A stretch of 64,000 bases of DNA, taken from assembly GCF_017357425.1 (NCBI RefSeq), contig NZ_CP014571.1, positions 1,612,001 through 1,676,000 of the forward strand, written 5' to 3'. Made by a program: the position numbers and the translations under genes. Below the pieces are notes generated by a model, which was given only the letters and a program-made list of their open reading frames with translations, had not been told where the DNA came from and made no database searches. Shown piece by piece: positions 10,113-64,000 of the stretch. Within the stretch, counting starts at the first letter, position 1. Every line of letters begins with the position of its first letter. Origin of the DNA: Arthrobacter sp. D5-1. GTDB taxonomy: Bacteria; Actinomycetota; Actinomycetes; Actinomycetales; Micrococcaceae.

Positions 10113-10119
10113 GCGGGCC

Positions 10120-11745: not shown

Positions 11746-11770
11746 GGGGAGAAATCCTGAGGGTTGGGGT

Positions 11771-11809: not shown

Positions 11810-11836
11810 GTGGCCTAAGGGCCGGGGTGTTGCGGC

Positions 11837-13719: not shown

Positions 13720-13851
13720 TTGCCAACGGGCGCGCGTGCCACATCTGGGGGTGCAGGATCAAATGTTGCGCGATAAAACAGATTTATCCTGAGAATTTGC
13801 TGTGCGTTTACTTCCTCCCTGGAATTGTTAGCGCGCACCTCTTAAACAGCA

Positions 13852-34390: not shown

Positions 34391-34553
34391 TTTTGTAGTG
34401 GGTTTGGTGTGAGGGCCGGGTGATCGTGCCGCGCTGATGCGTGGTGTGGTTGCCCGGCCGTTGCGCTGTGGTGGTTGTGCGCTCTGTTGTGGTGCGGGTT
34501 TTGAGGGTTTGTTGGTTTTGTTCGCGTTCTTGTTCTGTGGGGGGGCTGTGGTT

Positions 34554-35389: not shown

Positions 35390-35391
35390 TG

Positions 35392-35772: not shown

Positions 35773-35833
35773 GTCTGGGCCTCGGTGTGATTGGCAATGA
35801 AATCCAAGCAGCACAGCAAGCAGCGAAGCCGTC

Positions 35834-44222: not shown

Positions 44223-47200
44223 ATGGCTCTGTCTGATGGGTCCGGAAAACGCCGTGCCAATAACAGCCGGCGTAAGGTCATCGCAGCCACTGCCTTCACT
44301 GCGGCAGCGGCCGTCCTAATCACAGGTGCCATCCTCTATCCAGGGTTCAAGACCACCGAGGTGGAACTGAACGACGGCGGCGTCTGGGTGGTCAGTAAGA
44401 CCAAGAATGCGGCCGGTCGCCTGAACTACCCCTCCAAATCGCTGGATGGGGCAGTGACTCCGGCCAGCACCAACTTCGACATCCTTCAGCAGGCCGGCGA
44501 CATCTTCATCGATGACGCAGATGGCGGGACCATCAACCCTGTCAGCGCCGCCAACATGCGCCTGGGCGGCGACCAAAAACTTCCGGGCTCCGCGGAAGTG
44601 AGCTTCGGCAACAAAGTACTGGCTGTCACTGACCCGTCCCAGGGCAAGGTCTGGGCTGTTTCGCCCACCTCCATTGGCGGTTTCAGCGACGAATCGGAAC
44701 CCTTGTTCGAGCAGTCACCCGGTGTTGTCTCGGTGGTGGGCGTTGACGACACCATCCACACACTGGACCCGAAAACAGGAACACTGACGGCAACAAAGGT
44801 GGATCTCGACGGTAAGGCCGTGGATTCCCGGGTCCGGAGCGATGACGCTTTGAAGGCCGACGGCGAAGTCCAGCTGGCAACTGTGGGCGACAAAGCCGTG
44901 GTACTCAACGCGGCCACGGGCGACATCGTGCTGCCCGGGGGCAACAAAGTACACCTGGACGACGCCAGGGAAGCCAAATTGCAACAGAGCGGCCCGGAGG
45001 CCGATTTTATTGCCATCGCCACACCGAAGGCATTGCTCCTGCAACCCCTGGACGGCGGGACCGCCAAGACGGTCCAAGCGGACGGTCAGGGCATTCCGGC
45101 CGCGCCGGTCCATCTGGGATCCTGCACGTACGCAGCGTGGTCCGGTGCCAACAAATACGTCCGGGAATGCACCAACGAGGCAGATAACAAACGGTCCGAC
45201 GTTCCCAAGGCGAGTGCGTCGCCGTCGTACGTTTTCCGTGTCAACCGCGATCTTGTGGTGCTGAACGACGTCAACTCAGGCAACGTCTGGATGGTCAACC
45301 AGAACATGCAGTTGGTCAACAACTGGGACGACGTCATCCCGCCCCAGCAGACCTCGGACGACGCCGACAAGGACTCCGCGGACGAAGTCCAGCAGACAGT
45401 CCTTCCGGACCGCAGCAAACCCAACACCGTGCCGGTGGCCAAACCCGATGCCTTCGGGGTCAGGGCCGGAAAGACCACTGTCTTGCCCGTGCTGGACAAC
45501 GACGCCGATGCCGACGGCGATGTCCTCACGGTCAGCACCAGCGAGCCACTGAAGTCCGGCGCCTTGTCCGCCGTCTACGGTGGCACCGGCTTCCAGATCG
45601 CAGTCCCCGCCGGAACCACGGGCTCCGAAACGTTCAAGTACTCGGTGGAAGACGGCCGTGGCGGTACAGGCGGCGCGGACGTCGACCTGCGGGTTGTGCC
45701 CGCGGCGGAAAACAACGCCCCCCAACCCAAACCCAACCGGAACAACGCCTTGGTGGTCCAGTCCGGGAAGATCGCCAGCCAGTTTGTCCTCACCGATTGG
45801 CTGGACCCCGACGGCGATGACATCTTTGCCGTCGCCGTCTCCAGCAGCGATCCAGCGGACCAAGTCCGGATCAGGCCGGACGGCTTGCTCACCTTCCAGG
45901 ACGCAGGGGCTGGCCCGGGCCGTAAAACCCTGACCGTCAGTGTCTCGGACGGGTCCCTGACCACCCAAGGGCAGATCAGCGTTGACGTCCGTGCTCCGGG
46001 TGCGCTGCCGCCCATCGCGAATGCGGATCACGTGGTTGCGGTGGCGGGCCAGGATACGGTGATCGCGCCGCTCAAGAATGACACCGACCCGCAGGGCGGG
46101 ACGCTAAGACTTGCGCAGGCACAGCCGGACGCGCAGTCGACCGCCGTGGTGGGTCCGGACCAGCAGACGTTTACTTTCAACTCGACCTCGGTGGGTCCCC
46201 ACTATGTGACGTACATGGTGACCAACGGACCGGCGAGTGCCCAGCAACTGGTGCGGGTGGACGTCGTGTCCGGAAACAGCGACGGCGCACCGGTGGCGGT
46301 CCGCGATATTGCCCTCCTGCCCAGTGGCGGCAGCACCGTGGTTGACGTGTTGGGCAACGACTCAGACCCCAGTGGGGGCGTCCGGGTGGTCCAATCGGTC
46401 ACGGCGGCCGACGGGCTCCCGGTATCGGTCGCGGTCCTTGACCACTCGGTCGTCAAAATCACCGACATCCGGGCCCAGGGACAGTTGTCGTTGAAATACA
46501 CGATCTCCAACGGCAAGGCCTCGGCCACAGGGGATATTTCTGTCCAGGTTGTGCCGGCGCCCACCAAACTTCAGGCACCGCAGGCCAAGCCGGACGAGGT
46601 CTCCGTGCGTGCCGGCGACGTCGTGACCATCCCGGTCCTGGAGAACGACACGGACCCCAACGGCGGAGAGCTCACACTGGACCCCGTCCTGGCACAGCAG
46701 CCCGACGAGGCCGCGGGCAGGATCTTTGTTGCGGGGAACACCCTGCGCTACATCGCAGGCCAGGAACCCACCACCGTTTATGCCATCTACAAGGTCAGCA
46801 ATGCCTCGGGCCAAACTGACTCGCAGCAAGTCACCATCCGCATCCGAGCCCGCGATGACGCCACCAACACCAGGCCAGAGCCGCGGAATCTGACAGCCCG
46901 CGTGGTTGCGGGGATGACGGTTAGAATCCCTGTTCCCCTGGATGGTATCGATGCCGATGGCGACTCGGTGCAGCTGATGGGCATCGATAAAGCTCCCCAA
47001 CTGGGGACAGCCATCCTGCGGGACGGATATTTGGAGTTCACGGCCGGGGGTACGTCCGCCGGTACTGACACTTTCAGCTACCGGGTGCGGGACCGTATTG
47101 GTGCGGAGAACACCGGCACGGTGATCGTGGGCATTGCGCCGGCCGAAGCCGACAACCAGAAGCCCATTGCGGTGGACGACGTCATTGATGTCCGGCCCGG

Positions 47201-50200
47201 ACGACGGGTCGCGGTGAACGCACTGAAAAACGACTCAGACCCCGACGGCGACCCCATCGCTTTGGTGTCGGCGTTCGAGGCCAAACCGGAACTGCAGGTT
47301 GAAGCCGCCGCAGGAAAGGTGGTCCTCACGGCGCCGGGTGCGGCCGGCACGGACAGCATCAGCTACCGGATCCAGGACGACAAGAAGGCAGAAGCTGCCG
47401 CGGTCATCCGCGTCCAGACCAGCCCGACCGCGCCGCTCCATGCCCCCGTGGCAGTGGACGACCGGATCACGTTGGCCGAGACCCTGGGTAAAACTGCGGT
47501 TGACGTTCCGGTGGTGAAGAACGATTCCGATCCCGACGGCGTGGCGGAGGACCTCACCATTTCCCTGCCGGACGGGAACCCGAATGTGCGCGTAGGGACA
47601 GCCGGCAACGTAGTGGTGACACTCCTGCCCGAAGATCAGTTGATTCCCTATACCGTCACGGACATCGATGGGCAGTCAGCCACCGCGGTCATGTGGATTC
47701 CAGGCCAGGGCCTCCAGTACCCCACGCTTTCCACCACTGAGATCGTGGAGGTCACCGCGGGGGAGGAAGTTACTCTGGCCCTTCAGGATCACGTCAAGGT
47801 CAGGGACGGCCGTCAACCCCGCATAACGGTGGCGGACAAGATCCGTGTCCTTGGCGGTGACTCCACCAACGTTATTGCTGGTGATGGTACGGCGTTGAGG
47901 TATGCGGCCCAGCCTGAGTATGTGGGGCCCGGGTCCATCACCTTCGAAGTGACTGACGGCAGTGGTCCGGACGATGCCGAGGGCTTGAAGTCCACTCTGA
48001 CCATCCAGACCAAGGTGCTCCCGAACCCCAACGCCAATCACGCCCCCACCTTCAGCGGAGCTGCGATTGAAGCGCCAAAGGGGGACACTACCGAACTGGA
48101 CCTGGCCAACCTTGCCGCGGACGTTGATGAGCAGGACCAAGGCAAGCTCACGTTCAGCGTGGACGGTGACCTGCCCGGCGGTTTCGACGCGCGGGTGGAG
48201 GGTACGGTCCTGAAAATCACCCCCGGGGGTTCACTCAACCCCGGCGCCCGCGGGACCGTGCCGCTCAAGGTGACCGATGGCCGCTCGGAGCCTGCGAAGG
48301 CAGCCGTCACCGTTTCCGTAGTCTCATCGAACCGACCCAAACCGGCAGCAAACGATGATGTCCTCGACAAGGCCAACGCCGGCAAGTCCGAAACCATCAA
48401 TGTGCTGGGCAACGACTTCAACCCCTTCAGCGAACCCTTGACGGTGCTTTCGGCCGTGGTGGAGACCGGATCCGCATCAGGCGAGCCTGCCATAGGAGGC
48501 GACTCCATCACGGTGACGCCCGCCGACGGCTTCAAGGGGGTCCTGGTAGTCAGGTACACCATCAAGGACAAGACCGATGATCCCAGCCGGCAAGCCGTGG
48601 GTCGTGTCCGCATCACGGTGCGGGACAAGCCCGATGCTCCTTCGGCCCCGGTTGCTACGGACGTCCGCAGTAAAACTGCCGTCCTCAAGTGGGCGCCGCC
48701 GTCGGACAATGGCGCAGCCATCACCAAGTACACGGTGACAGCGGCCGGGTTCCAGCAGGAATGCCCCACGACGACGTGTACGTTGACTGGACTGACCAAC
48801 AACGTCAAGTATGTCTTCACCGTGGTTGCCACCAATGAGGTAGGCGAATCCCAGCCCTCAGTGCCCTCCAACGAGATCACTCCGGATGAGAAGCCATCGC
48901 CCCCGGACGTCCCCACGGTCCAAGCCGGCGATAAGGACCTGGCCATCACCTGGACTCCCGCCAAGACCGAAGGTTCCCCGGTAAAGCACTACAACCTGGA
49001 GATCTCTCCGCCGCCCGCCAACGGCATTGCCGTCAAGAACGAGGTCACTGGCCTCAGCTACACCTGGCCAGGCCTGACCAACGGTGTGAAATACAAGGTC
49101 CGTGCCCAGGCTGTCAATGACCTAGGCCCGTCGGATTGGGGGCTGTACTCCGCAGAGGACCATCCTGCCGGTATCCCCGCAACACCGGCGCCGCCCAGCA
49201 CCACAGTGGTGTCCGCCGTTGGTTCGCAGAACCAGCTCCGCGTCGACTGGGCCGAGCCTGGCATCAACGGCGACCCCATCAAGAATTACTACGTCACCAT
49301 GAGCGGCGGCAGCGGAACCACCCAGACTCAGACCATTCCGGGGAATGTCCGAACAGCCACCTTCAAGGTTTCCACCAACGAGTCGGCGTACACGTTCACA
49401 GTTCAGGCTGAGAACAAGGCAGGAAAGAGCCTGGTCAGCGCGGCCTCACCTCCGCGCAGGGCCACGGGAAAGCTGGGCACTGTTCAAAACGTCAGTGCCA
49501 CGCCGGCCAACACCGGTGCCGCCGGTGGTCAGCTCACCATCAATTTCTCTGCGCTCGGCGACACCCAGCGCAACGGCTCCAAGGCCAACGAAGTCAGCTA
49601 TACCTACTCCGCAGGCGGACGCTCCGGTGCCATCCAGCCCGGGCAGACCGTAGGCGGCTTCGCCAACGGCCAGGCGACCACTGTGACAGTGAGGGCACAT
49701 TCGACGGTGGCGCCCAGTTCGGATGCCGCTGCCGCGCCATCCGCCACACCATTTGGTGCGCCGGGTACGCCGTCGGCGTCGGGTTCCAACGGGGCCGTGA
49801 ACCAGAAATCTGTGACCTTCAACTGGTCTTCCCCGTCAACCGCTACGAACGATGTGAAGACCACGAAGATCCGCATCGACAACGGCGGCTGGGAGACCGT
49901 GGGCGCCTCGGGCAGCCGGACCATCAACACTGCCGGGTGGGAAGAGTCCCACAGCATCACTGTGCAGACGTTCAACTCGCTCGGCACGGGCGGCGGCCTA
50001 GCGTCGGCCAGCGCCAAGTCGGGACGCCAGGGGGAGTGGACCACCACCATGAACCCGGGAGCGGTTGTGCGGTCGTGCAGCTTTACAGCAGGAGGGGCCA
50101 ACTACGATCCGAACAGGAAAACGTGTGACGGGCAAAGCAACAACACCCCGCCATGGATGGCTTCCGCCGATCAAGGCCCCATTGTGGTGCGTTGTTACAT

Positions 50201-50339
50201 CGACCAAACAGATAACTGGACCGGTATGCACCGCTGGTGGCGGATCGAATCAGGCTCCTACCGCAACGTGGGCCGGTACATCATCGCAGGTCACACCCAC
50301 CTTCCAGACCCCGCAGGCATCGGAGCGCCCCCGTGCTGA
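44223..50339 (+). CDS. Giant surface protein with Ig-like and fibronectin III repeats, copy 1
   Basis: This ~2,038-residue protein has a basic N-terminus and one membrane anchor (IAATAFTAAAAVLITGAIL, ~residues 19-38); the rest is extracellular. Residues ~40-370 are beta-rich and propeller-like, with a Cys pair (GSCTYAAWSG/VRECTN). Residues ~390-1370 contain many Ig/cadherin-like repeats marked by PVLDNDADADGD, KNDTDPQGG, NDSDPSGG and NDTDPNGG turns. FN3 domains begin near residue ~1470 (SKTAVLKWAPPSDNGAAITKYTV) and continue to ~1950. The C-terminal tip (~80 residues) has Cys pairs and many Trp. ATG 44223 with GGGGGAA upstream is preferred to GTG 44208. It matches the 'fn3' gene of Bifidobacterium PFNA clusters; function is unknown, probably adhesion or sensing. 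Confidence 0.85.
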   Translation: MALSDGSGKRRANNSRRKVIAATAFTAAAAVLITGAILYPGFKTTEVELNDGGVWVVSKTKNAAGRLNYPSKSLDGAVTPASTNFDILQQAGDIFIDDADGGTINPVSAANMRLGGDQKLPGSAEVSFGNKVLAVTDPSQGKVWAVSPTSIGGFSDESEPLFEQSPGVVSVVGVDDTIHTLDPKTGTLTATKVDLDGKAVDSRVRSDDALKADGEVQLATVGDKAVVLNAATGDIVLPGGNKVHLDDAREAKLQQSGPEADFIAIATPKALLLQPLDGGTAKTVQADGQGIPAAPVHLGSCTYAAWSGANKYVRECTNEADNKRSDVPKASASPSYVFRVNRDLVVLNDVNSGNVWMVNQNMQLVNNWDDVIPPQQTSDDADKDSADEVQQTVLPDRSKPNTVPVAKPDAFGVRAGKTTVLPVLDNDADADGDVLTVSTSEPLKSGALSAVYGGTGFQIAVPAGTTGSETFKYSVEDGRGGTGGADVDLRVVPAAENNAPQPKPNRNNALVVQSGKIASQFVLTDWLDPDGDDIFAVAVSSSDPADQVRIRPDGLLTFQDAGAGPGRKTLTVSVSDGSLTTQGQISVDVRAPGALPPIANADHVVAVAGQDTVIAPLKNDTDPQGGTLRLAQAQPDAQSTAVVGPDQQTFTFNSTSVGPHYVTYMVTNGPASAQQLVRVDVVSGNSDGAPVAVRDIALLPSGGSTVVDVLGNDSDPSGGVRVVQSVTAADGLPVSVAVLDHSVVKITDIRAQGQLSLKYTISNGKASATGDISVQVVPAPTKLQAPQAKPDEVSVRAGDVVTIPVLENDTDPNGGELTLDPVLAQQPDEAAGRIFVAGNTLRYIAGQEPTTVYAIYKVSNASGQTDSQQVTIRIRARDDATNTRPEPRNLTARVVAGMTVRIPVPLDGIDADGDSVQLMGIDKAPQLGTAILRDGYLEFTAGGTSAGTDTFSYRVRDRIGAENTGTVIVGIAPAEADNQKPIAVDDVIDVRPGRRVAVNALKNDSDPDGDPIALVSAFEAKPELQVEAAAGKVVLTAPGAAGTDSISYRIQDDKKAEAAAVIRVQTSPTAPLHAPVAVDDRITLAETLGKTAVDVPVVKNDSDPDGVAEDLTISLPDGNPNVRVGTAGNVVVTLLPEDQLIPYTVTDIDGQSATAVMWIPGQGLQYPTLSTTEIVEVTAGEEVTLALQDHVKVRDGRQPRITVADKIRVLGGDSTNVIAGDGTALRYAAQPEYVGPGSITFEVTDGSGPDDAEGLKSTLTIQTKVLPNPNANHAPTFSGAAIEAPKGDTTELDLANLAADVDEQDQGKLTFSVDGDLPGGFDARVEGTVLKITPGGSLNPGARGTVPLKVTDGRSEPAKAAVTVSVVSSNRPKPAANDDVLDKANAGKSETINVLGNDFNPFSEPLTVLSAVVETGSASGEPAIGGDSITVTPADGFKGVLVVRYTIKDKTDDPSRQAVGRVRITVRDKPDAPSAPVATDVRSKTAVLKWAPPSDNGAAITKYTVTAAGFQQECPTTTCTLTGLTNNVKYVFTVVATNEVGESQPSVPSNEITPDEKPSPPDVPTVQAGDKDLAITWTPAKTEGSPVKHYNLEISPPPANGIAVKNEVTGLSYTWPGLTNGVKYKVRAQAVNDLGPSDWGLYSAEDHPAGIPATPAPPSTTVVSAVGSQNQLRVDWAEPGINGDPIKNYYVTMSGGSGTTQTQTIPGNVRTATFKVSTNESAYTFTVQAENKAGKSLVSAASPPRRATGKLGTVQNVSATPANTGAAGGQLTINFSALGDTQRNGSKANEVSYTYSAGGRSGAIQPGQTVGGFANGQATTVTVRAHSTVAPSSDAAAAPSATPFGAPGTPSASGSNGAVNQKSVTFNWSSPSTATNDVKTTKIRIDNGGWETVGASGSRTINTAGWEESHSITVQTFNSLGTGGGLASASAKSGRQGEWTTTMNPGAVVRSCSFTAGGANYDPNRKTCDGQSNNTPPWMASADQGPIVVRCYIDQTDNWTGMHRWWRIESGSYRNVGRYIIAGHTHLPDPAGIGAPPC

Positions 50340-50589
50340 ACATGACAAAACCACGGGACGGGGCACTTCTCCCCATCGCGCGCCCAGTGCTTAAGGCCGT
50401 AGTCTGTCAAAGCCAATGGATAGCCCGGTCTCGGGTGTCCTCAATTGGCCGTGGGGTGCGTGGGATAGTCTTAGGGACTGAAAATTCCGCCGCCGTATGG
50501 GGGTACTGCGGAATGCACGGCTGCCGGCATGTGTCGGTTGGCCCGGAAGTCGCTGGGGGGCGGCTGAACATCAAAGGAATTTTGGGGCT

Positions 50590-53500
50590 GTGAGAAATTT
50601 CTTCGGCAAGCTGGGGCTGACAAGGCGTCAAGACAAGAAGTTCATAGCGGGAACTGCTGCCACCGCGGCGGGCGCGTTGTTGATCACCGGGGCTGTACTT
50701 TACCCGGGCTTCAAGACCACGGAGGTGGACTTGAACGACGGCGGCGTATGGGTTGTGAGCAAAACCAAGAACGCTGTGGGGCGGTTGAACTACCCGTCGC
50801 GCGTTCTTGATGGGGCCGTAACTCCCGCCACCACCACTTTCGATGTCCTGCAGCATGACGGCAACGTTTTTGTCGACGACGAATCCGGTTCCACCATCAA
50901 CCAGGTCTCTGCCGCGAACCTGAAGCTCGGCGGCGACAAGCAACTGCCGTCGTCGTCGCAAGTCAGCTATGGTTCCACCGTCCTTTCGGTGACCGATCCC
51001 GCCCGTGGCAAGGTGTGGGCGCTGTCTCCCTCCACGGTCAACGGCTTCGATGAAGAAGGTACCGAGCCTGTCCTGACCGGGGACCAAGGCATGGTCTCCG
51101 CAGTAGGCGCCGATAACCGCATCTACACAGCGGATCCGGGCAAGGGCGAGATCACCGTTACCACGGTGGACGCCAATGGTGAACGGACAGACTCGCAGGT
51201 CACCAAAGTGGATGAGCTCAAGGGGGCCGGCGACCTTCAGATTGCCGTCGTCGGTGATAAGCCCGTAGTCCTCGACGCCGGCTCAGGAAACCTGTTCCTG
51301 CCCGGCGGACGCAAGCTCCAGCTGCAGGATGCACGGGAAGCCAAGCTGCAGCAGAGTGGCGAGGACAGCAGCTTTGTTGCCGTTGCCACCCGCAAAGCCC
51401 TCTTGAAGCAGCCCTTGGACGGATCCACCGCTGCAACACTCAATGCCGACGGAGAAGGCGTCCCCGCAGCACCGGTGCAGGTGAGCAAGTGCGTTCACGC
51501 TGCCTGGTCCGGAGCCAACAAGTACGTCCGAGACTGCGAGAACGACGCCGACGACAAGAAGAATGACGTCCCCAAGGCCAGTGCCTCGCCCAGTTACGTT
51601 TTCCGCGTCAACCGCGACCTCGTAGTCCTCAACGATGTGAATTCCGGCAGCGTGTGGCTGGTCAACCAGAACATGCAGCTCGTCAACAACTGGGACGATG
51701 TTGTCCCGCCCAAGAACCAGTCCGACGACCAGGACCAGGAGTCCGCGGACAACAACACCATCAACGTCCTGCCGGACCGCACCAAGCCCAACCGTGCGCC
51801 TGAAACCAAACCGGACGAGTTCGGTGTCCGGCCGGGCCGGACCTCCATCCTCAGCATCCTGGACAATGATTCAGACCCCGACGGCGATGTCCTCACCGCT
51901 GCGGTAGGCGCCAACGGGCCAAAATCCGGGGCGCTGGAGAACATCTACGGTGGCTCAGCGTTCCAGATCAAGGTCCCCGCTGACGCCAAGCCGGGAACGG
52001 AAACCTTCGACTACAACGCCTCGGACGGACGCGGTTTGTCCGCCGGTGGACAGGTCACGCTGCGCGTCGTGGCTCCGGAGGAAAACAAGCCTCCCTTCTT
52101 CAAACGCGGCGAGCCCACCACCATGCTGGTGGAGCAGGGCAAGTCCGTCAGTCAGAACATCCTGACCGACTGGATGGATCCCGACGGCGACGACCTCGTC
52201 CTCCTGGACGCCAAGACGGACAACGACCAGGACCAGGTCAAGGTCCGTCGCGACGGCCTGCTCACGTACCAGGACTCTGGTGCAGCACCGGGCAAGAAGA
52301 ACGTCACCATCACGGTGTGGGACGGCCGGGCCACCACGACGGGCCGGATCGTTGTCAACGTGCAGCCCCCGGGCGCCTTGGCGCCGGTGGTCAACGCCGA
52401 CCACGTCACGGCCGTGGTTGGCCAGGACCTGGTCATTGCGCCCCTCAAGAACGACGTCGACCCCAATGGCGGTGCCCTCCGGGTAGCGCACGTCGAGGCT
52501 GCCGGACCGGCAGAGCTGGGTCCAGTGACCGACGGCGGTACGTTCACCTTCCGGAGCACCACACCGGGCCCGATCTACTTGACGTACATCGCCAGCAACG
52601 GGCCCCAAAGCAGCCAAGGCTTGATCCGTGTTGACGTCGAGTCCGGCAAGGACGCTGGAGCGCCCGTTGCGGTTCACGACGTCGCACTGCTCCCTGTGGG
52701 CGGCAGTGTGCTGGTGGATCCCTTGGCCAACGACTCCGATCCTTCCGGCGGCGTGCTGGTCCTCCAGTCCGTCACCGTCCCCGACGGCTCGTCAGCTTCG
52801 GTCAGCGTGATCGACCACAGCGTCCTGCGCGTTACCGATGTGCTCGGCGCGAAAGAGCCGTTCGTGTTCAGTTACACCATGTCCAACGGCCGCGGCTCGG
52901 CCACAGGCACCGTTGGCGTCGTTCCGGTGCCGGCCCCCGCCGTCGTCGAGGCCCCCCAGCCGAAACCCGACGAAGTCAACGTCCGCGTCAACGACGTCGT
53001 GACCATTCCGGTCCTGGACAACGACACGCACCCGCAAGGTGAAGAGCTCTCTGTCGATCCTGTCCTGGCACAGAGCGTCCCTGAAGAAGACGGTAAGGCC
53101 TTTATCTCCGAGAAGACCCTGCGCTTCATCGCCGGACCCACACCCAAGACCGTGCGTGCCATCTACAACGCGGTGGACCCCCAGGGCCAGAAGAGCGCAG
53201 CGGCCGTCACCATCCACATCCTGCCGCTGGAAGGCGCGCAGAACTCCCGTCCGCAGCCGCAGAACCTGACCGCGCGCGTGGTCGCCGGCGGCAGCGTCCG
53301 GATCCCGGTGCCGCTGGACGGCATCGACCCCGACGGCGACTCGGTCCAGCTCACCGGCATCGACAGCACGCCCACCATGGGAACCGCGACGGCGGGAAGC
53401 AGCTTCATCGATTTCGTCGCCGCCGGCGATGGCGCAGGAACCGACACGTTCCGCTACAAGGTGATTGACCGCCAAGGAGCGGTCAACACCGGAACGGTGA

Positions 53501-56500: not shown

Positions 56501-56697
56501 GCTACACACCTGGCAGTCCCGCGAAATGTGGTGTGGGCTGGGTAGAACGCTCCTGGGGCAGGATCACCATCAACTGCACCAAGGACATCTATAACAACGG
56601 CACGCCGTGGTACCGGCTCCAGGGTTCCCCGAAGGACGGCTGGTTCGTGAAGTCCACGACAGTGGACCTCTACGGGCCGCGCCCCGGCGGCTGCTAG
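50590..56697 (+). CDS. Giant surface protein with Ig-like and fibronectin III repeats, copy 2
   Basis: This ~2,035-residue paralogue is colinear with the preceding gene from membrane anchor to FN3 domains. For instance YPGFKTTEV and LNDGGVWVVSKTKN are identical, as are AWSGANKYVR and VPKASASPSYVFRVNRD. The Ig-like repeats carry the same NDSDPDGD turns. The FN3 part starts near residue ~1470 (GDQTALLTWNAPADRGSPITKYTV). The C-terminal tip is different: TCPGKPGQ ... KCGVGWVERSWGRITINCTKD ... GWFVKSTTVDLYGPRPGGC, resembling a small SH3-like or lectin-like cap. The GTG at 50590 gives a basic lead then the anchor. The 250-bp gap from copy 1 has a weak promoter-like TTGGCC/TAGTCT (50445-50471). It is the second of a tandem duplication and directly precedes MoxR. 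Confidence 0.85.
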   Translation: MRNFFGKLGLTRRQDKKFIAGTAATAAGALLITGAVLYPGFKTTEVDLNDGGVWVVSKTKNAVGRLNYPSRVLDGAVTPATTTFDVLQHDGNVFVDDESGSTINQVSAANLKLGGDKQLPSSSQVSYGSTVLSVTDPARGKVWALSPSTVNGFDEEGTEPVLTGDQGMVSAVGADNRIYTADPGKGEITVTTVDANGERTDSQVTKVDELKGAGDLQIAVVGDKPVVLDAGSGNLFLPGGRKLQLQDAREAKLQQSGEDSSFVAVATRKALLKQPLDGSTAATLNADGEGVPAAPVQVSKCVHAAWSGANKYVRDCENDADDKKNDVPKASASPSYVFRVNRDLVVLNDVNSGSVWLVNQNMQLVNNWDDVVPPKNQSDDQDQESADNNTINVLPDRTKPNRAPETKPDEFGVRPGRTSILSILDNDSDPDGDVLTAAVGANGPKSGALENIYGGSAFQIKVPADAKPGTETFDYNASDGRGLSAGGQVTLRVVAPEENKPPFFKRGEPTTMLVEQGKSVSQNILTDWMDPDGDDLVLLDAKTDNDQDQVKVRRDGLLTYQDSGAAPGKKNVTITVWDGRATTTGRIVVNVQPPGALAPVVNADHVTAVVGQDLVIAPLKNDVDPNGGALRVAHVEAAGPAELGPVTDGGTFTFRSTTPGPIYLTYIASNGPQSSQGLIRVDVESGKDAGAPVAVHDVALLPVGGSVLVDPLANDSDPSGGVLVLQSVTVPDGSSASVSVIDHSVLRVTDVLGAKEPFVFSYTMSNGRGSATGTVGVVPVPAPAVVEAPQPKPDEVNVRVNDVVTIPVLDNDTHPQGEELSVDPVLAQSVPEEDGKAFISEKTLRFIAGPTPKTVRAIYNAVDPQGQKSAAAVTIHILPLEGAQNSRPQPQNLTARVVAGGSVRIPVPLDGIDPDGDSVQLTGIDSTPTMGTATAGSSFIDFVAAGDGAGTDTFRYKVIDRQGAVNTGTVTVGVAPRGEDNQKPAPVDDEVQVRPGRQIAVDATANDTDPDGDIIRILTDSIEADAGLEAQVSKTSGRVLVTAPAAEGTVNVRYSVADDRDAVGQASIRVNVKNDIPLQAPIARDDRVTSAQTLGKTAVDVPVLKNDEDPDGVGENLKVTTGLETARPGSEGNVVVDLTEQPQLVPYTVEDVDGQKSTAIIWVPGIGQQVPTLAKDEVVEMVSGQSVTVNLAEWVKVREGKSPRLTQADRIKLIGADGSDPVAGNGTALKYTAGAEYVGPGSISFEVTDGSGPDDPNGLKSTLSIRTKVLPDPNKNNPPVLLGSDVDVPKGDSASLDLEKLASDPDSDDVQNMKYELAGAAPGGFRVSIDGKTLKVSAEDSVQIGQGGTVQVKAKDPRGLEAVATYKLSLTASNRPKPVANDDLEPDAKSGNSVTVNALANDSNPFPDTPLKIISAVTETGEGTAEVNGGNVTVTPSSGFTGTMVVAYVVGDKTGETSRYATARIRLTVKDKPAAPTTPLAQSVGDQTALLTWNAPADRGSPITKYTVYGENGFKQDCPANTCTLTGLTNNVKYHFAVTATNAINESERSPVSAEVRPDVKPDTPVAPTLKFGDKQLSVAWVPPASKGSPIKSYDLEISPAPAGQNPQIQNLTGNSHVWSGLTNGVAYKVRVLARNDAKEPSEWSPYSAAETPAGVPATPAAPSVAGAGSVGDQSQLQVSWAAPNNNGDAVSAYTLTTYRGGAVVTTQSVGATSQNVTVANSEADYTFTVSATNKAGVSGVSQQSAAIRAAGKPGIVAAPTAALMETNAAGGKIRVAFNPLSQKERNGANANEISYRYALTSGAGSGAIPAGGGVIAAPNGQDTAVVVWAVSSRNPTPGDRSAASNTVNPYGVAAAPSVTGSKSSGVGDKTVSWTWNQPNGNGRPVTGYQYSLDNGGWTDTTQRSFSTTVGFSETKTLRVRAISGGQAGNIGSDTSRSGSAPPPPDPPASEIQVDASSVRTCPGKPGQTDSYTPGSPAKCGVGWVERSWGRITINCTKDIYNNGTPWYRLQGSPKDGWFVKSTTVDLYGPRPGGC

Positions 56698-56754
56698 TCC
56701 CATGGCAACAACAACGTCAAACCCCTACCGATACATGAGGAACAGGATTAACCG

Positions 56755-57726
56755 ATGACCATGACAAGCGAGCAGGCCGCGTGGTTTGCAGAAACGTTCG
56801 AGAAGCTCGTGGCCAATGTGGGCAAGGCGGTGCTCGGCAAGGAGCACGTCATCCGGCTGACCTTCACGGCGATGTTGGCCGAGGGACATATCCTGTTTGA
56901 AGATGCACCGGGCACGGGTAAGACCTCGTTGGCCCGCGCCCTGGCTGCAACAGTCCAGGGTTCGCACAACCGTATCCAGTTCACGCCTGACCTCCTGCCG
57001 TCGGACGTGACGGGTGTGACCATCTATGACCAGAAGACCCAGAAGTTTGAATTCCACAAGGGCCCGGTGTTCAACAACATCGTCCTGGCTGATGAAATCA
57101 ACCGTGCGTCGCCGAAGACCCAGTCCGCGTTGCTGGAAGTCATGGAAGAATCCCGGGTGACCGTGGATGGAACCACCTATGAGGCAGGCCGGCCGTTCAT
57201 GGTGTTGGCAACCCAGAACCCGATCGAGCAGGCGGGCACGTACCGCCTGCCGGAAGCACAGCTGGACCGCTTCCTGATCAAGACGTCCATCGGCTACCCG
57301 GACCACGCCTCAACGGTGCGGTTGCTGGGCGGGGCCAACCTCAAGGACCGGTCCAAGGAGCTCACGGCGCTCATCACCACCCAGGCCGTGGCCGATATGG
57401 CAGACCTTGCGGCCACCACCCACGTGGATACGGCTGTGCTGGAGTACATCTCACGCTTGTGCGAGGAAACCCGTAACGCCTCCGAGACCCGCCTTGGTGT
57501 TTCCGTGCGTGGTGCACTTGCCATGGTTCGTGCCGCCAAGGTGTGGGCCGCGGGCCAAGGCCGCAACTTCGTGCTCCCGGACGACATTAAGGAACTGGCA
57601 CCTGTGGTGTGGACCCACCGTCTGGTCATGGATCCTGAGGCGGAATTCTCCGGTGCAACACCGGACGTTGTCCTCACCCGCGTCCTGGCGGATGTCGCCG
57701 CCCCGCAGCAACGCGCCACCGCTTAG
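56755..57726 (+). CDS. MoxR-family AAA+ ATPase
   Basis: This 323-residue ATPase has Walker A in EDAPGTGKTSLA (~residues 43-54), Walker B/DEIN in IVLADEINRASPKTQSALLEVMEE, sensor 1 in LATQNPIEQAGTYRLPEAQLDRF and a C-terminal lid with VSVRGALAM. MoxR ATPases act with VWA-domain/DUF58 proteins as chaperone-like modules for maturation or assembly of partner proteins. It starts 57 bp after copy 2 of the giant surface protein and precedes DUF58, the standard order of PFNA-like clusters. Its client may be the surface proteins or the transglutaminase-fold protein; this is inference. Confidence 0.93.
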   Translation: MTMTSEQAAWFAETFEKLVANVGKAVLGKEHVIRLTFTAMLAEGHILFEDAPGTGKTSLARALAATVQGSHNRIQFTPDLLPSDVTGVTIYDQKTQKFEFHKGPVFNNIVLADEINRASPKTQSALLEVMEESRVTVDGTTYEAGRPFMVLATQNPIEQAGTYRLPEAQLDRFLIKTSIGYPDHASTVRLLGGANLKDRSKELTALITTQAVADMADLAATTHVDTAVLEYISRLCEETRNASETRLGVSVRGALAMVRAAKVWAAGQGRNFVLPDDIKELAPVVWTHRLVMDPEAEFSGATPDVVLTRVLADVAAPQQRATA

Positions 57727-57798
57727 TCCGCGGCACCGCACGAGCCAGACCGGCTCATCGCACCCCACCTGCTCCCCAGCTCAAACAAAGGCCTCCAC

Positions 57799-59202
57799 AT
57801 GTCCTCCAGCACACCCCTGACCAGGGCTGCTGACTCGTTCAAACGCGCAACGGCCGCTGTGAGCGGCAAGATTCGCGACGCCCGTTCACCCCGCAACGAA
57901 CCAGGGAACCGCCCCGGCCGCAACGGGAAACCGGGCAAGCCCAGTTCCTTGCACCCGGCCGCCGTGTGGGCCGAAGCCGCGGGAACAGCCGGCGAGTTCC
58001 TCTCACCTGCTTGGCGCAACGTCCGGGCAGTGTGGCTGAAGTTCGTGTGGCCGGTCCTCGCCGTGGTGAGCCTGCTGGGCTGGGTGGTCCTCGCTGCTGC
58101 CATCGGGCTCTGGTGGGCAGGGCAGGCCTGGGGCTGGCAGGAAGCGAAGTCCGCGGCGATGGTTGCTTTCCTGCTGTTTGTCCTGGCCATTGCGTTCATT
58201 GTGGGCCGCTCGGCGTACGGCGTGGTCCTGGACCTCGCCCGCACGCGGGTAGCTGTGGGCGACGACGCTGTAGGCAGCATTGCCGTGTCCAACGTCTCCA
58301 CCAGGCCGTTGTTGCCCGCAGCACTGGAGCTTCCGGTGGGCTCCAACACCGCCGTTTTCCACCTGCCGCGCATGAAGCCGGCGCAGGTGCACGAGGACCT
58401 CTTCACCATTCCAACGGCCCGGCGCGCTGTGATCGTGGTTGGTCCGGTTCGCTCGGTCCGCGCCGACCCCCTCCACCTTCTCCGCCGCCGCGTGATGTGG
58501 ACCGAACCTGTGGACCTCTTTGTCCATCCCCGCACGGTGTCCTTGGGCAGCTCGGCCGCGGGCTTCATCCGCGACCTTGAAGGCATGCCCACCACTGAGT
58601 TGTCCAGCGCCGACGTCTCTTTCCATGCCCTGCGTGACTATGTTCCGGGGGACGATCGCCGCCACATCCACTGGAAGACTACAGCCCGGACCAACAAGCT
58701 CATGGTCCGCCAGTTCGAGGAAACCCGCCGTGCACACCTGGCCATTGCGCTCTCCATCAACACTGACGAATACGACTCCGAACCGGAGTTCGAAATGGCC
58801 ATCTCAGTAGCGGCATCCATTGGCCGCCAGGCCATCAGCGAACAGCGCGATTTGGACGTCCTGACTCAAAAGGGACCACTCCGCTGTGAAACCGGCCGCA
58901 ACCTGCTGGACGACGCCACAAGGATTGTCGGGGCGCCGATGCGGAAGAACGCCGTCGACCTCGCCAGGAACCTGTCCGACGCTGTCCCGAACGCCTCCGT
59001 GGTGTTCTTCGTCGTGGGCAGTCACGTCACCGCAACCCAGCTCCGTACTTGTGCCGCATCCGTGCCCCCTGGCGTTCGCAGCCTGGCAGTGCGGGTCCAA
59101 CCCGGCGCGGCGCCGACGAGGGCCAACATCGCTGACCTGACGGTCCTCACTGTCGGCGACCTTGACGATCTGGCCATTGTTCTTCGAAAGGCGGCAGCAT
59201 GA
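57799..59202 (+). CDS. DUF58 membrane protein
   Basis: This 467-residue protein has a basic, disordered N-terminus, two transmembrane segments (~residues 80-105 and ~118-145) and a cytoplasmic DUF58 domain with the conserved YVPGDDRRHIHWKTTARTNKLMVRQFEE signature, followed by a VWA-like domain. DUF58 proteins regularly pair with MoxR ATPases. Its 3' end overlaps the transglutaminase-like gene by 4 bp (ATGA). No enzymatic role is known; it likely anchors or presents the MoxR module at the membrane. Confidence 0.9.
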   Translation: MSSSTPLTRAADSFKRATAAVSGKIRDARSPRNEPGNRPGRNGKPGKPSSLHPAAVWAEAAGTAGEFLSPAWRNVRAVWLKFVWPVLAVVSLLGWVVLAAAIGLWWAGQAWGWQEAKSAAMVAFLLFVLAIAFIVGRSAYGVVLDLARTRVAVGDDAVGSIAVSNVSTRPLLPAALELPVGSNTAVFHLPRMKPAQVHEDLFTIPTARRAVIVVGPVRSVRADPLHLLRRRVMWTEPVDLFVHPRTVSLGSSAAGFIRDLEGMPTTELSSADVSFHALRDYVPGDDRRHIHWKTTARTNKLMVRQFEETRRAHLAIALSINTDEYDSEPEFEMAISVAASIGRQAISEQRDLDVLTQKGPLRCETGRNLLDDATRIVGAPMRKNAVDLARNLSDAVPNASVVFFVVGSHVTATQLRTCAASVPPGVRSLAVRVQPGAAPTRANIADLTVLTVGDLDDLAIVLRKAAA

Positions 59203-61694
59203 GCACCGCACCGAATCTCCGTGTGCGTCCCCGTGCCGCGAAAGGATCCAGGTCAACAGGCCGCGCCAACCGCGCGGGCGGAGGGTCGATCTTTGCGGAC
59301 GGCCGCCCGCTGTGGCACTTCGCCGTGGACTGCGGCGCCTTGGTGGTGTTGCTGTTCCTGGGAGTCCTCGGATTCAGCCTGAGTTTCGGGGGAGACCCCC
59401 ACTATCTGATCGCCGGCCTGGGCGGTGTGCTCCTTGGACTGGGTATCGCGGTCCTGAACGCCCATCTTCGCCTGGGCCTGCTGATTACTGCCGCCGTGGC
59501 CTTCGGTGCCTACATGCTGTTTGGCTCCGCCCTCGCCGTTCCTGATTCAGCGGTCTTCGGCGTCCTTCCCAGCCTCGATTCGTTGCGGACACTGCTGCTG
59601 GGCGTGGTGTTTGCCTGGAAGGACATGCTGACGGTCGGCGTTCCCGTGGGCACTGCCAACGGCATGCTCATCGTGCCGTTCCTCAGCTCGCTGCTGACCG
59701 CCTTGGCCGCTGGCCTGCTGACCTGGCGGCTGAAGAGCCCGTACTGGCCTTTGCTGCCTGTGTTGGTGTTGTTCGTAACGGGTATCGCCTTCAGCACCAG
59801 CGCCGGCTTCCTCAATGTGGAGCGCGGCGTCTCCCTCACCATTGTCTCGATCGTGTGGGCGACGTTCCGCCGCGATGTCCTTCGGCAGCGGAGCACCAAG
59901 ACTGTCTCGGCCAACAGGCCGGATTCCGACGCCGGTGCAGCGCGCCGCGGCCAGCTCCGCCGGTTGGGGACTGCTGCAGCCGTGATCGCCGTCGCCGTCG
60001 GCGTCACCGCCATCGCGTCGCCGATTGTCACCGCCAGCGACGACCGGAAGGTGCTGCGCAACACGATCGTCCCGCCGTTCGATCCCCGCGACTACATCAC
60101 TCCTTTGGCGAGCTTCCGGAACTTCGTCAAGGACGAAAAGGACAGCACGCTGTTCACGGTTAAGGGCTTGCCGAAGGACGCTCGTGTGCGCCTGGCCGCC
60201 CTGGATGCCTTCAACGGCCTGAACTACACCATGGATCCCAACAGCTCCGGGAACTTCAGCAAGGTGGGAGACGCCCGCTCCCTCAATACGCTGGCTGACA
60301 CCGGGAGCCCCGTCAAGGGCACCAACTACACGCTGGACATCACCATCGAGGACTACCAGGGGTACTTCGTTCCGGGCGGCCGGCACACCACCGGCATGAG
60401 TTTCGCGGACACGTCCGGTGCGGCGTCGGGTCTATACTTCAACGCCGGCACGGACACCGCAGTCACCACCAAGGGCCTGTCCAAAGGCGAGAACTACACG
60501 GTCCAGGTCTCCGACCCCGGCACCTTGGAGCACGGCCAGCTGACGCAGTACGACTTCGCGAAGCTGACGCTGCCGGAGGCCCAGGAGGTGCCGCCGATCA
60601 TTGCCTCGCAGGCCAATGAACTGTCCGCCGATGCGCCAACGGCCATTGACCGTGTGCGGCAGATCGAAGCGCATTTCCAGAAGAGCGGTGCTTTCAGCAA
60701 CGGCCTGGTGACGGAAGGACAGCTTCCCAGCCTCCCCGGCCACAGCGCCGCACGTGTACGCAACATGCTCTCCGCCAAGCAGATGCTGGGCGACGACGAA
60801 CAATACGCCGTCTCCATGTCCCTCATGCTCCGGCACCTCGGCATCCCGTCGCGCATCGTGATGGGCTTCTACCCGGATCCCAAGAGCCCCGAAAACGGTG
60901 CGGGCGACATCAAGATCACGGGCAAGGACGTCCACGCCTGGGTTGAGGTGGCCTTCGACCGCGTCGGTTGGGTTGCGTTCGATCCCACCCCGCCCAAGGA
61001 CAACGTGCCCATCCCGCCGGACCCGGAGAACAAGTCCAAGCCCAAGCCACAGGTGCTGCAGCCGCCGCCCCCGCCGCAGGAACCCGCGGACCTGCCGCCG
61101 GACTCCACACCGGATGCCCTGGACGCTGACGAGAAGAAAAACAACCCCTGGCTCTTCTGGGGCCCGTTGTTGGCAGCCATCGGTGTCGCGCTGATCCCGT
61201 TGGGGATACTCGCCTTGCCGCTGCTGCTCATCCTTCTGTTGAAAGCGCGACGCCGGAAGGCACGTTTCCGTGACGGCCATCCTGCCCAGCGGGTCGGCGG
61301 TGGGTGGAACGAAGTGATCAGCCTTGCCACCGACATGGGCGCCTCGATCAACACCAAGTCAACGCGGCGTGAATCGGCCACCGTTATCGCGGAGGCGTTC
61401 CCGAACGCCGGCGGCACCACCACGATGCTTGCCCACCGCGCAGACGCCGCCGTCTTTGGCGCCGGCCAGCCAAGCGAGGACGAGGTCAAGCACTATTGGG
61501 AGATCGTCGATTCGTCCTTGACCGACATCACGGGAAGCGTCGGTTTCTGGAAGCGGCAGCAGGCCCGGTTCTCGCCGCGGTCCTTGCTGTCCGATGGGCG
61601 GGCTGCCCTCCGGCGCCGGGATCAGGCGACCACCGATCCCTCGACGCGCCGTCGCTTCACCTTGCCGTTCAAGAAGGACACTACGAATGAATAA
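59199..61694 (+). CDS. Transglutaminase-fold membrane protein lacking the catalytic Cys
   Basis: This 831-residue protein has an N-terminal block of about six transmembrane segments (residues ~45-275), an extracellular region with a transglutaminase-like core (~470-600), a Pro/Glu/Lys-rich linker, one more transmembrane segment (~655-685) and a cytoplasmic tail. In the core, the motif normally G-x-C-E-Q-Y-A reads GDDEQYA, with Asp533 in place of the nucleophilic Cys. The catalytic His (DVHAWVEV) and Asp (GWVAFDPTPP) positions are kept. So it probably does not act as a transglutaminase or protease by the usual mechanism. It overlaps DUF58 and the FHA gene at its ends, in a tight operon. Confidence 0.88.
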   Translation: MSTAPNLRVRPRAAKGSRSTGRANRAGGGSIFADGRPLWHFAVDCGALVVLLFLGVLGFSLSFGGDPHYLIAGLGGVLLGLGIAVLNAHLRLGLLITAAVAFGAYMLFGSALAVPDSAVFGVLPSLDSLRTLLLGVVFAWKDMLTVGVPVGTANGMLIVPFLSSLLTALAAGLLTWRLKSPYWPLLPVLVLFVTGIAFSTSAGFLNVERGVSLTIVSIVWATFRRDVLRQRSTKTVSANRPDSDAGAARRGQLRRLGTAAAVIAVAVGVTAIASPIVTASDDRKVLRNTIVPPFDPRDYITPLASFRNFVKDEKDSTLFTVKGLPKDARVRLAALDAFNGLNYTMDPNSSGNFSKVGDARSLNTLADTGSPVKGTNYTLDITIEDYQGYFVPGGRHTTGMSFADTSGAASGLYFNAGTDTAVTTKGLSKGENYTVQVSDPGTLEHGQLTQYDFAKLTLPEAQEVPPIIASQANELSADAPTAIDRVRQIEAHFQKSGAFSNGLVTEGQLPSLPGHSAARVRNMLSAKQMLGDDEQYAVSMSLMLRHLGIPSRIVMGFYPDPKSPENGAGDIKITGKDVHAWVEVAFDRVGWVAFDPTPPKDNVPIPPDPENKSKPKPQVLQPPPPPQEPADLPPDSTPDALDADEKKNNPWLFWGPLLAAIGVALIPLGILALPLLLILLLKARRRKARFRDGHPAQRVGGGWNEVISLATDMGASINTKSTRRESATVIAEAFPNAGGTTTMLAHRADAAVFGAGQPSEDEVKHYWEIVDSSLTDITGSVGFWKRQQARFSPRSLLSDGRAALRRRDQATTDPSTRRRFTLPFKKDTTNE

Positions 61695-63273
61695 TGAGGC
61701 CGAACTTTGCCCGGCCTGCAGGCATGCGGTCCTTCCAGGGGCCACGTTCTGCACGCAGTGCGGATCGCCGTTGAGCAACCGTGGAGCCCGCAAGGAAGGG
61801 AACATCAACCACGCCCAAAAGGCGGCTTTGGAGTTCGCGACCCGGCAGGGCATGCCCGATCCCGGTAGTATCTCGGTAGTGTCGGCGCCGGCGTCGCCGA
61901 CGCACCCGGCGCCTCCGGGAACCACCACGGCGCCGGACCGTATCACTGGGCCAGGGGGAGGGACCACCATGACCACCAAGCTCCACTTGGTGCCCGCGTC
62001 TGCAGGCAGGAGGCTTGGCGCGGCTGTGCTGGACTGGCTTGGCCCCATTGCAGTCCTGGCCACCACTTTCGCCATCGGCATCGCAGGCATCACGCAAACC
62101 CGCAAAAACGGCTTCATTGTCTATGACACGGGCCTGTTGGTCCTCCTGGGCAGCATCGGCCTGGGTGTGACGGTGGTCTACATTTTTGTGCTGCTTGCAC
62201 TCGAAGCCAAGTCCGGCAACACCATCGGCAATCAGCTCATGGGAATCCGCAGCTCCGATGCCGAGGGCTACGCCCCCGGTGCCGGTGCCGTTTTTGTACG
62301 GGGCATCATCACCGGCGGCGTACTGCTCCTCGGCGGAATCACCTCGGTGGTTCTTTCTGCCCTTGGCCTGATTACCCTGGTGCTGTGGATCGGGCTTCCA
62401 CTGCTGCTCCTGGGTGTTGTGTGGGCCGTCCTCGTGGTGGTCTCCAATGCCTGGGACAAGGACGGCAAGCTCCGCGGCTGGCAGGACAAGGCCGCGAAGT
62501 CTTTGGTGTTCGACGTCAACGCAGGACGCAATCCCGTGGCCACGGGTGGCATCCAGGGCCCCTACAGTTTCGCGCCGATGGATCTCCCGCCCGTGCAACC
62601 GGTGGCTTCTCCAGTCCCCTCCGGCGCAACGACTGGTGCCAGGGGATCCGGTGTCGCTCAGGCTGCTGCCGCTTCCTCTGCGGCCACTCCGTCCGGTTTC
62701 GGGCAGTCCGCACCTGCGCCGGTGACTCCAGTGGTGCCCGCAGCCCAGCAGCCCTCACATGACCCCAACCAGTGGCGTCCGCCGTCGGCGCCACGGCCTG
62801 CGACGGCTGCACAACAGCTGCCTCCCGTGACGCCGCAACCCCACGTTATCCAGCAACCGTCCGCGCCGCTTACCGGCTTTGCCGGCCACCCCGACGACGA
62901 CGTGGAGCGCACCCAGATGCGCCCCGGCACTGCGCGGGCACAAGCGGTCCTGCGGATCCGGATTGATGACGGCCAGGACGTCCAACTCGGCGGCTCGGTC
63001 CTGCTGGGGAGGAACCCGGCTGCGCAGCCCGGGGAAGCGGTAGAGCAACTTTTGCCGGTTGCCGATCCCGGCCGGTCCATCTCCAAAACCCACCTGCATC
63101 TGAGGGTGGATGGCGATGGCGTCTGGGTCACCGACCGAAACTCCACCAACGGCAGTGCCGTCACCACGCCCGACGGTCTCCAGACGCGGCTCCATCCGGG
63201 CCAGGCAGTCTTGGTCCGTCCCGGTTCCACCGTTCACTTCGGGGACCGTTCCTTCCACCTAGGACAAGCATGA
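61687..63273 (+). CDS. Zinc-ribbon, RDD membrane domain and FHA domain protein
   Basis: This 528-residue protein starts with a zinc ribbon (CPACRHAVLPGATFCTQC), then a linker, an RDD-family block of three to four transmembrane segments (~residues 108-260), a long Pro/Ala/Gln-rich linker (~290-425) and a C-terminal FHA domain (VLLGRNPAAQPG; RSISKTHLHLRV; VTDRNSTNGS). FHA domains bind phosphothreonine peptides, so this protein probably reads phosphorylation by the Ser/Thr kinase expected in this cluster. The start at ATG 61687 overlaps the previous gene by 8 bp and its stop overlaps the phosphatase start by 4 bp. Four domains in one chain is unusual. Confidence 0.88.
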   Translation: MNNEAELCPACRHAVLPGATFCTQCGSPLSNRGARKEGNINHAQKAALEFATRQGMPDPGSISVVSAPASPTHPAPPGTTTAPDRITGPGGGTTMTTKLHLVPASAGRRLGAAVLDWLGPIAVLATTFAIGIAGITQTRKNGFIVYDTGLLVLLGSIGLGVTVVYIFVLLALEAKSGNTIGNQLMGIRSSDAEGYAPGAGAVFVRGIITGGVLLLGGITSVVLSALGLITLVLWIGLPLLLLGVVWAVLVVVSNAWDKDGKLRGWQDKAAKSLVFDVNAGRNPVATGGIQGPYSFAPMDLPPVQPVASPVPSGATTGARGSGVAQAAAASSAATPSGFGQSAPAPVTPVVPAAQQPSHDPNQWRPPSAPRPATAAQQLPPVTPQPHVIQQPSAPLTGFAGHPDDDVERTQMRPGTARAQAVLRIRIDDGQDVQLGGSVLLGRNPAAQPGEAVEQLLPVADPGRSISKTHLHLRVDGDGVWVTDRNSTNGSAVTTPDGLQTRLHPGQAVLVRPGSTVHFGDRSFHLGQA

Positions 63274-64000
63274 ATTCACAGCCGGCCACCCCTGCCAATG
63301 CCGAAGCCGGCGCTCCTGCAGGCGGGTCTTCCTTTGGCCTGAGTTACGGGTACGGGACGGACCGCGGACTGCGCCGTGAACTGAACGAGGATTCGTTCAT
63401 CGCTGCAGACCCCGTCTTTGCGGTAGCAGACGGCATGGGCGGACATGAGGCCGGTGAAATTGCCAGCGGCATGTGTGTCCGGGCCCTGGGCAGTGCCCCC
63501 GAACTTGCAGCTGGCGTGCGTACCGCATCTGCAGCCGACTTGCAGGCCTGCCTGTTGAGGGCTGACGCAGCCATCCGCAACGCCACGGGAGCCCGCGCCG
63601 GAACCACGCTGTCCGGCGTGGTGGTGGTGGAACAGATGGGCCTGCCCTATTGGCTGGTGATGAACATCGGAGATTCCAGGACGTACCGCCTCAGCCAAGG
63701 GGAGTTCACGCAGGTCAGCGTGGACCACTCCGAGGTGCAGGAACTGGTGGATTCCGGGGACATCACCGCAGAGCAGGCAACGGTTCATCCCCGCCGCCAC
63801 GTAGTGACCCGTGCCTTGGGCACCGGCGATGAGACCGAGGCCGATTTCTGGTTGCTTCCCATCCAGGAAGGTGACCGGATCATGGTCTGCTCCGACGGTC
63901 TCAATGGTGAGCTGGGCGACGACCACATGTTCCGCATCCTCAGCACCGTCGCCCATCCGCAGGATGCCGTGGATGCTCTGATCCAGGCTGCCTTGCGAAG
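63270..64000 (+). CDS. PP2C-family Ser/Thr phosphatase, N-terminal part
   Basis: The frame runs off the right edge; about 243 residues are present. PP2C metal and phosphate motifs are seen in order: RRELNEDSFIAADP, VADGMGGHEAGEIAS, GTTLSGVVVV, NIGDSRTYRLSQG, HPRRHVVTRALG and MVCSDGLNGEL. It would remove phosphate from Ser/Thr residues, opposing a PknB-like kinase. It begins within the stop codon of the FHA gene (ATGA). In PFNA-type clusters this gene (prpC) is followed or accompanied by the kinase, which should lie just right of the window. Confidence 0.93.
   Translation, partial: MNSQPATPANAEAGAPAGGSSFGLSYGYGTDRGLRRELNEDSFIAADPVFAVADGMGGHEAGEIASGMCVRALGSAPELAAGVRTASAADLQACLLRADAAIRNATGARAGTTLSGVVVVEQMGLPYWLVMNIGDSRTYRLSQGEFTQVSVDHSEVQELVDSGDITAEQATVHPRRHVVTRALGTGDETEADFWLLPIQEGDRIMVCSDGLNGELGDDHMFRILSTVAHPQDAVDALIQAALR

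Follow-up and report, generated by a model that had tools for sequence, protein, structure and literature searches.

The window, a stretch of 64,000 nt (G000:C1:1612001-1676000) from the 5.12 Mb, three-contig genome G000, carries seven genes on the plus strand between positions 44223 and 64000. The first two encode giant Ig/FN3 proteins of about 2,035 aa each in tandem. Giant protein 1 (44223..50339) has an N-terminal membrane anchor, nine Big_9 stretches and three fn3 domains by Pfam, and a Cys-rich C-terminal tip; its paralogue, giant protein 2 (about 50590..56697), has ten Big_9 and three fn3 matches. They are followed by a MoxR AAA+ ATPase (56755..57726; Pfam AAA_3, E 6e-63), a DUF58 membrane protein (57799..59202; Pfam and hydropathy), a polytopic Transglut_core protein in which the catalytic Cys is absent by motif alignment (59199..61694), a protein combining a zinc ribbon, an RDD membrane domain and an FHA domain (about 61687..63273; ORFs and Pfam), and a PP2C-type phosphatase (Pfam), which starts at 63270 and continues past the end of the window to 64196. 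At their ends the last four genes share 4, 8 and 4 bases. The sequence-only reading of this DNA had described seven same-strand genes, the last four overlapping at their ends, as a PFNA-like cluster. ORFs and Pfam bore this out for gene number, strand and overlaps, and the giants, MoxR, DUF58, transglutaminase fold, FHA and PP2C were all found by Pfam. A scan of the cluster for promoters and terminators returned nothing notable (no promoters, 2.0 expected; 20 terminators, 15.6 expected, sd 3.9). An adenylate/guanylate cyclase-like gene (42769-43956) stands immediately before giant 1, and ahead of it come genes for a bacterial PH-domain protein and a biotin ligase. Elsewhere in the window, at 34001-36000, the GC content falls locally to 0.547 and the GC skew is 0.245.

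The cluster runs on to the right of the window on the same strand, with genes overlapping or closely spaced. This DNA was analysed as L002 (G000:C1:1672000-1690000); coordinates are given in the window numbering carried on past 64000, with L002 positions after the semicolon. An FHA protein (64183-66192; 4184-6193) is followed by a Ser/Thr kinase with one TM helix (66189-67892; 6190-7893), a 234-aa FHA/MH2-like protein, X234 (67938-68642; 7939-8643), and an EssC/EccC-type ATPase of 1,484 aa (68639-73093; 8640-13094), all on the plus strand. The ORFs of X234 and the ATPase overlap by 4 bases. A PknB-like kinase and more FHA genes had been expected on this side; a Ser/Thr kinase and further FHA genes are indeed there. 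The type VII secretion ATPase had been missed because it lies outside the window. A gene for a secreted 202-aa protein (73190-73798; 13191-13799; plus strand) comes next; its membership in the cluster is uncertain, and it was present 3' of the ATPase in three of the four genomes of the genus in which downstream DNA was checked. The gene after it was recognised by eye alone as ligA (DNA ligase). The whole gene cluster, PFNA module and type VII secretion (T7SS) motor together, probably forms one operon.

To judge conservation, named loci were collected with the transglutaminase-fold alignment alone; the best 80 of at least 534 confirmed relatives, many on short contigs, contained MoxR in 74 cases, DUF58 in 78, PP2C in 69, the kinase in 66, the giant in 65 and the ATPase in 51. 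Since the partner genes recur in loci picked by this one alignment, the cluster is not a chance arrangement. Among the 63 of these 80 loci with at least 9 kb to the right of the transglutaminase-fold gene, the ATPase was on the same strand in 48, reversed in one (L107) and not present in 14. We also mapped 20 stretches from sampled genomes by mechanical ORF calling and phmmer, with some ORF lengths inflated by start choice. Together with the 80 best loci they revealed a shared order, complete or with at least one gene uncalled: giant, MoxR, DUF58, transglutaminase fold, RDD/FHA, PP2C, FHA, kinase, X234, ATPase. This order was seen in Isoptericola, Promicromonospora, Cellulosimicrobium, Oerskovia, Herbiconiux, Agreia, Arthrobacter and part of Microbacterium. 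A kinase-first order occurred in G330, G217, G214 and G312. The ATPase gene lies directly 3' of the transglutaminase-fold gene in the kinase-first loci of G330 and G217, and it abuts or overlaps that gene in G330, G202 and G217. In G276 and G312 the ATPase-WXG100 loci are separate from the rest. The gene order of locus L066 (G214) is that of the published PFNA operon; no ATPase was found within its 20 kb, and the genome had no match at E <= 1e-60.

The order-level sample comprised 248 genomes, 69 of which were assigned to the ATPase group by identity and length, with partial or split rows (e.g., G309, G393, G399) excluded. The giant was found in 65 of these 69 genomes vs. 74 of the 179 others (Fisher 8e-16); four ATPase-group genomes had no giant match, and 74 of the 139 giant-bearing genomes lacked this ATPase group. 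For 56 genomes both genes were listed by place: on different contigs in 10 and on one contig in 46. In 35 of the latter the two were no more than 30 kb apart, invariably with the giant upstream and both on one strand, and in 11 they lay far apart. In a phylum-wide sample of 198 genomes, the giant was present in 6 and an EssC/EccC relative in 38. A relative, G008, carries a second giant (L052, G008:C11:741001-761000) with no other module gene called in 20 kb, a dispersed paralogue.

The giants keep a nearly constant length. The 59 named giants longer than 1,950 aa span 2,009-2,156 aa with a median of 2,037. Giants 1 and 2 of the window are 49-77% identical per 100 aa over their first 1,000 aa and 24-27% identical at the tip. 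For 40 of the 59 giants, mean pairwise identity per 100 aa stayed at 0.37-0.65 as far as residue 1,800, after which it fell to 0.35, 0.30 and 0.23. The last 110 aa contain exactly four Cys in 49 of the 59, five in 5 and two or three in 5. In six comparisons among G000, G278 and G400, the last 300 aa were 52-77% identical and the body 81-95%; omega was 0.14-0.40 for the tip vs. 0.03-0.12 for the body. Positive selection on the tips was considered, but these values do not show it: omega is above that of the body yet below 1, and dS is near saturation. We read the giants, from these alignments, as stalks that stay constant and end in a variable tip. A hydrophobic stretch at about residues 17-36 resembles that of Sec-inserted proteins (hydropathy only), and hydropathy gave no C-terminal TM in the giants of G000. 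No WXG100 was matched by Pfam in the giants. Between the N-terminal anchor and the Big_9 array, giant 1 has a domain of about 400 aa. A PDB sequence search with the N-terminal domain of the giants gave nothing at E <= 1; a beta-propeller was a guess only and was dropped.

The canonical motif around the catalytic Cys of transglutaminases is G-x-C-x-x-[FY]-A. It was recognisable in 93 of 98 transglutaminase-fold ORFs, and five had no recognisable motif. None of the 93 carries the Cys: Asp stands there in 84, the site mostly reads G-D-D-E-Q-Y-A, and the His position is kept in 71. The mean column identity of the fold was 38%, in a sequence set different from those of the X234, ATPase and kinase alignments. 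Transglutaminase activity is therefore unlikely for this family as judged from the alignment, and so is cross-linking. This is a warning for the naming of the PFNA "transglutaminase", which is probably no enzyme.

In the alignment of 30 kinases, the invariant residues, which we take to be the HRD and DFG motifs, are kept, and the mean column identity is 40%. For X234 it is 62% over 41 rows. The predicted structure of X234 (mean pLDDT 75) gave matches to FHA and MH2 sandwiches, with a best E of 5e-3. An FN3 domain in the extracellular part of the kinase was suggested by eye and then discarded, as Pfam fn3 matched only 1 of 30 members at E 0.11. Also dropped was the idea that the FHA proteins have a phosphothreonine motif in common (acidic...T-x-[MLVI]-[RK]), which occurred in 7 of 40 RDD-FHA proteins (shuffled 14%) and in 20 of 66 for the second FHA protein (shuffled 20%). 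The motif was abundant in the kinase alone (52 of 56; shuffled 23%).

The ATPase matched TIGR03928 with an E of 1.7e-160 and 536 bits, below the equivalog cut-off of 778, and FtsK_SpoIIIE with 191 bits. It consists of a beta-grasp-like N-terminus, an FHA domain in which fold and conserved residues are present, two TM helices and FtsK/SpoIIIE domains. As judged from these family matches, the EssC/EccC-type ATPase that closes the cluster is a T7SS motor. Its N-terminus (residues 1-95; mean column identity 51%) has the model topology beta-beta-alpha-beta-beta-beta. By hhalign it could be aligned with EccD/YukD domains (73 columns, P 9e-4, probability 22%); the N-terminus of the G275 ATPase scored P 6e-5 and probability 65%, and controls gave P 0.26 and 0.1. 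The direct comparison of the two N-termini was weak (28 columns, P 0.005, probability 7%). Pfam YukD matched in 5 of 38 N-termini (best E 0.014), and FHA domains or folds like FHA made up almost all matches shown by a fold search. Profile and model are suggestive, no more, of a ubiquitin-like part fused to the ATPase N-terminus. An EccD with a YukD domain, as in T7SSa, was not detected in G000 (no PF08817 match at E <= 1e-3). In a quick tree of 26 ATPases, supported by SH-aLRT only and including no named TsdC, a branch with SH-aLRT 99 set apart nine PFNA-linked ATPases together with the unlinked ones of G276 and G312 and the nearby ones of G134 and G097. Within the linked group nest the ATPases of the two split loci, G276 and G312, whereas the one from the T7SSd-like locus of G275 falls outside it.

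WXG100 genes were sought in 34 genomes chosen from the 69 of the ATPase group. A same-strand WXG100 gene follows the ATPase at no more than 6 kb in 27 of them, of which 20 were found by Pfam and 7 by a finer profile or by reading. Of the 20 Pfam neighbours, three are at a distance of 1.5-4.6 kb and one (G311) is inside a 1,194-aa open frame. Identical WXG100 copies were seen 3' of the ATPase at 512-811 and 1162-1461 in L151 (G203, Isoptericola halotolerans) and at 863-1135 and 2233-2505 in L166. A profile built from 11 ATPase-adjacent WXG100s was matched in 11 of 13 ATPase-positive vs. 0 of 20 ATPase-negative genomes (Fisher 4e-7); without the row contributors G234 and G422 the counts were 9 of 11 vs. 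0 of 20 (Fisher 3e-6). The bare presence of a WXG100 is no sign of this system, as 19 of the 20 ATPase-negative genomes have one, and it was discarded as evidence. Orphan WXG100 genes may have another role, since the match in these EssC-lacking genomes is strong. The window's own genome has no WXG100 beside the ATPase; one of the profile subtype is unlinked, at G000:C1:4683330, and in the genus this subtype is mostly away from the ATPase cluster. Four WXG-headed candidate effectors were found in the window's genome. An orphan WXG100 gene (L004, G000:C1:1207105) is near an ORF that reads as a histidine kinase by eye.

The main texts on the PFNA operon of Bifidobacterium give the order pkb2-fn3-aaa-atp-duf58-tgm-prpC-hyp-fha, with the kinase first (PMC8430577, PMC6803598). 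The composition (kinase, giant FN3 protein, MoxR, DUF58, transglutaminase fold, PP2C, FHA) agrees with that operon, and the order agrees from fn3 to tgm; the kinase comes downstream here. Compared with that published order, the present cluster also has two giants, extra FHA proteins and the EssC-type ATPase. The words "FtsK" and "secretion" are absent from both main texts. In the T7SSd of Actinomycetota, the main text of Garrett et al. 2024 (PMC11217815) likewise describes an FHA-bearing EssC, a Ser/Thr kinase, WXG100 and a large Ig-like envelope protein, TsdI, with a signal peptide, Ig-like repeats and a C-terminal TM; the ubiquitin-like part is reported as missing there. The same text has no match for transglutaminase, MoxR, DUF58, fibronectin or PFNA. 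The cluster studied here differs from T7SSd by its MoxR/DUF58/transglutaminase fold/PP2C/RDD-FHA genes, by an ATPase grouping apart from the T7SSd-like one of G275 and by a giant that is N-anchored, unlike the TsdI-like protein of G275. A TsdA-type WXG100 gene is not in the cluster of the window's genome, and a TsdH-like conserved short TM gene was not evident in the locus maps, which were made without a short-ORF profile search. The T7SSe of Bacillota shares the kinase, a PPM phosphatase, a separate FHA protein, FHA-EssC and an Ig-like giant; in the main text it is confined to Bacillota, with a separate ubiquitin-like gene and no MoxR/DUF58 module described (PMC11217815).

The locus of G275 resembles the T7SSd components in the main text of PMC11217815. 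It reads kinase, 147 aa, 1,798 aa, ATPase, FHA, 93 aa, 206 aa and 519 aa (T7SS_signal). The 147-aa protein has one TM by eye and the 1,798-aa Ig-like protein hydrophobic stretches at both ends. By phmmer, this TsdI-like protein had no match to the 59 giants, and the 93-aa protein had no Pfam WXG100 match at E <= 1. The same 36-kb stretch (L169/L170, G275:C2:374001-410000) holds a PFNA giant and kinase, with the T7SSd-like locus on the other strand. A literature search, with subscription papers, preprints and supplements mostly outside it, returned no title or abstract start linking the PFNA cluster to type VII secretion. The ATPases of the cluster may already be listed in some publication.

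The sequence comparisons establish the linkage and order of the genes, the ATPase family and its distinct group, the WXG100 partners, the Cys-less transglutaminase fold and giants of constant length with variable tips. We consider it probable, though well short of certain, that the cluster forms the core of a T7SS subtype of Actinomycetales which is regulated by phosphorylation and has not been described before, with PFNA module and T7SS motor in one cluster. The EssC-type ATPase would carry WXG-headed effectors and dimers of WXG100 through the membrane. With the N-terminal helix as anchor, the giants would reach through the wall and beyond it, either as stalks, some 60 nm long as estimated from about 16 Ig/FN3 domains, or as the walls of a conduit, and their Cys-rich tips may meet an outside partner. 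MoxR, DUF58 and the pseudo-transglutaminase could form a module that chaperones and docks giants and motor. Assembly would be switched by the kinase, opposed by PP2C, through four FHA-type readers, one of them on the ATPase. The WXG100 gene that belongs with this motor would mostly have been relocated elsewhere on the chromosome in the window's genus.

The PFNA module could instead be a self-standing operon for surface sensing or adhesion, as proposed for Bifidobacterium, with the ATPase as a frequent neighbour that shares only its regulation. We regard this as rather unlikely. The module can work without this motor, since more than half of the giant-bearing genomes lack the ATPase group, L066 included, and the separate ATPase-WXG100 loci of G276 and G312 also speak for it. 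However, nearly all genomes of the ATPase group have a giant as well, the ATPase gene overlaps X234 in the window's genome and abuts or overlaps the transglutaminase-fold gene in three others, and the split loci nest within the linked group. The sequence-only reading had offered, as one model, a kinase-controlled assembly line for surface fibres, here taken to include their cross-linking. Kinase, FHA and PP2C parts are indeed present, and the constant length of the giants would suit it; the cross-linking step is unlikely, given the missing Cys, and the model leaves the T7SS motor without explanation. This makes it quite improbable, and a secretion system is better supported by the sequence data than a fibre factory as such. 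That the ATPase exports the giants themselves is suggested by gene adjacency, but the Sec-like hydrophobic stretch of the giants, their lack of a Pfam WXG100 match and the WXG100 partners of the motor render it very improbable.

A wider reading, which we hold to be doubtful, would make PFNA clusters as a class, Bifidobacterium included, the arm that targets and controls type VII secretion. Wall-spanning giants with fast-changing Cys-rich tips would choose the target or partner, and the kinase/FHA relay would fire the motor for polymorphic WXG-headed effectors (calpain-like protease, DUF6973, alpha/beta hydrolase). In clusters that lack the motor, this arm would serve another one, perhaps the T7SSd-like locus near the PFNA genes in G275, or be re-used as a receptor. 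If the cluster is a T7SS subtype, the Bifidobacterium-type surface/signalling cluster would in many relatives be part of an undescribed secretion system. A widespread candidate system in soil Actinomycetales would be named, with substrates predicted gene by gene, and the FHA domain on the motor would have a reason. The ubiquitin-like part "missing" from T7SSd may then be fused to the ATPase. The literature on the PFNA operon as a cytokine-binding immune interface would be joined with the T7SS catalogue, neither of which was found to mention the other in the texts covered.

The window's genome has a second FHA-EssC locus (L051, G000:C1:918001-938000), possibly another T7SS variant. It could be the motor for WXG proteins, which would count against the T7SS-subtype reading of the present cluster. 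L051 encodes a kinase of 665 aa, an EssC of 1,429 aa, a periplasmic-binding-like protein of 447 aa and a 953-aa coiled-coil protein with weak WXG100 matches.
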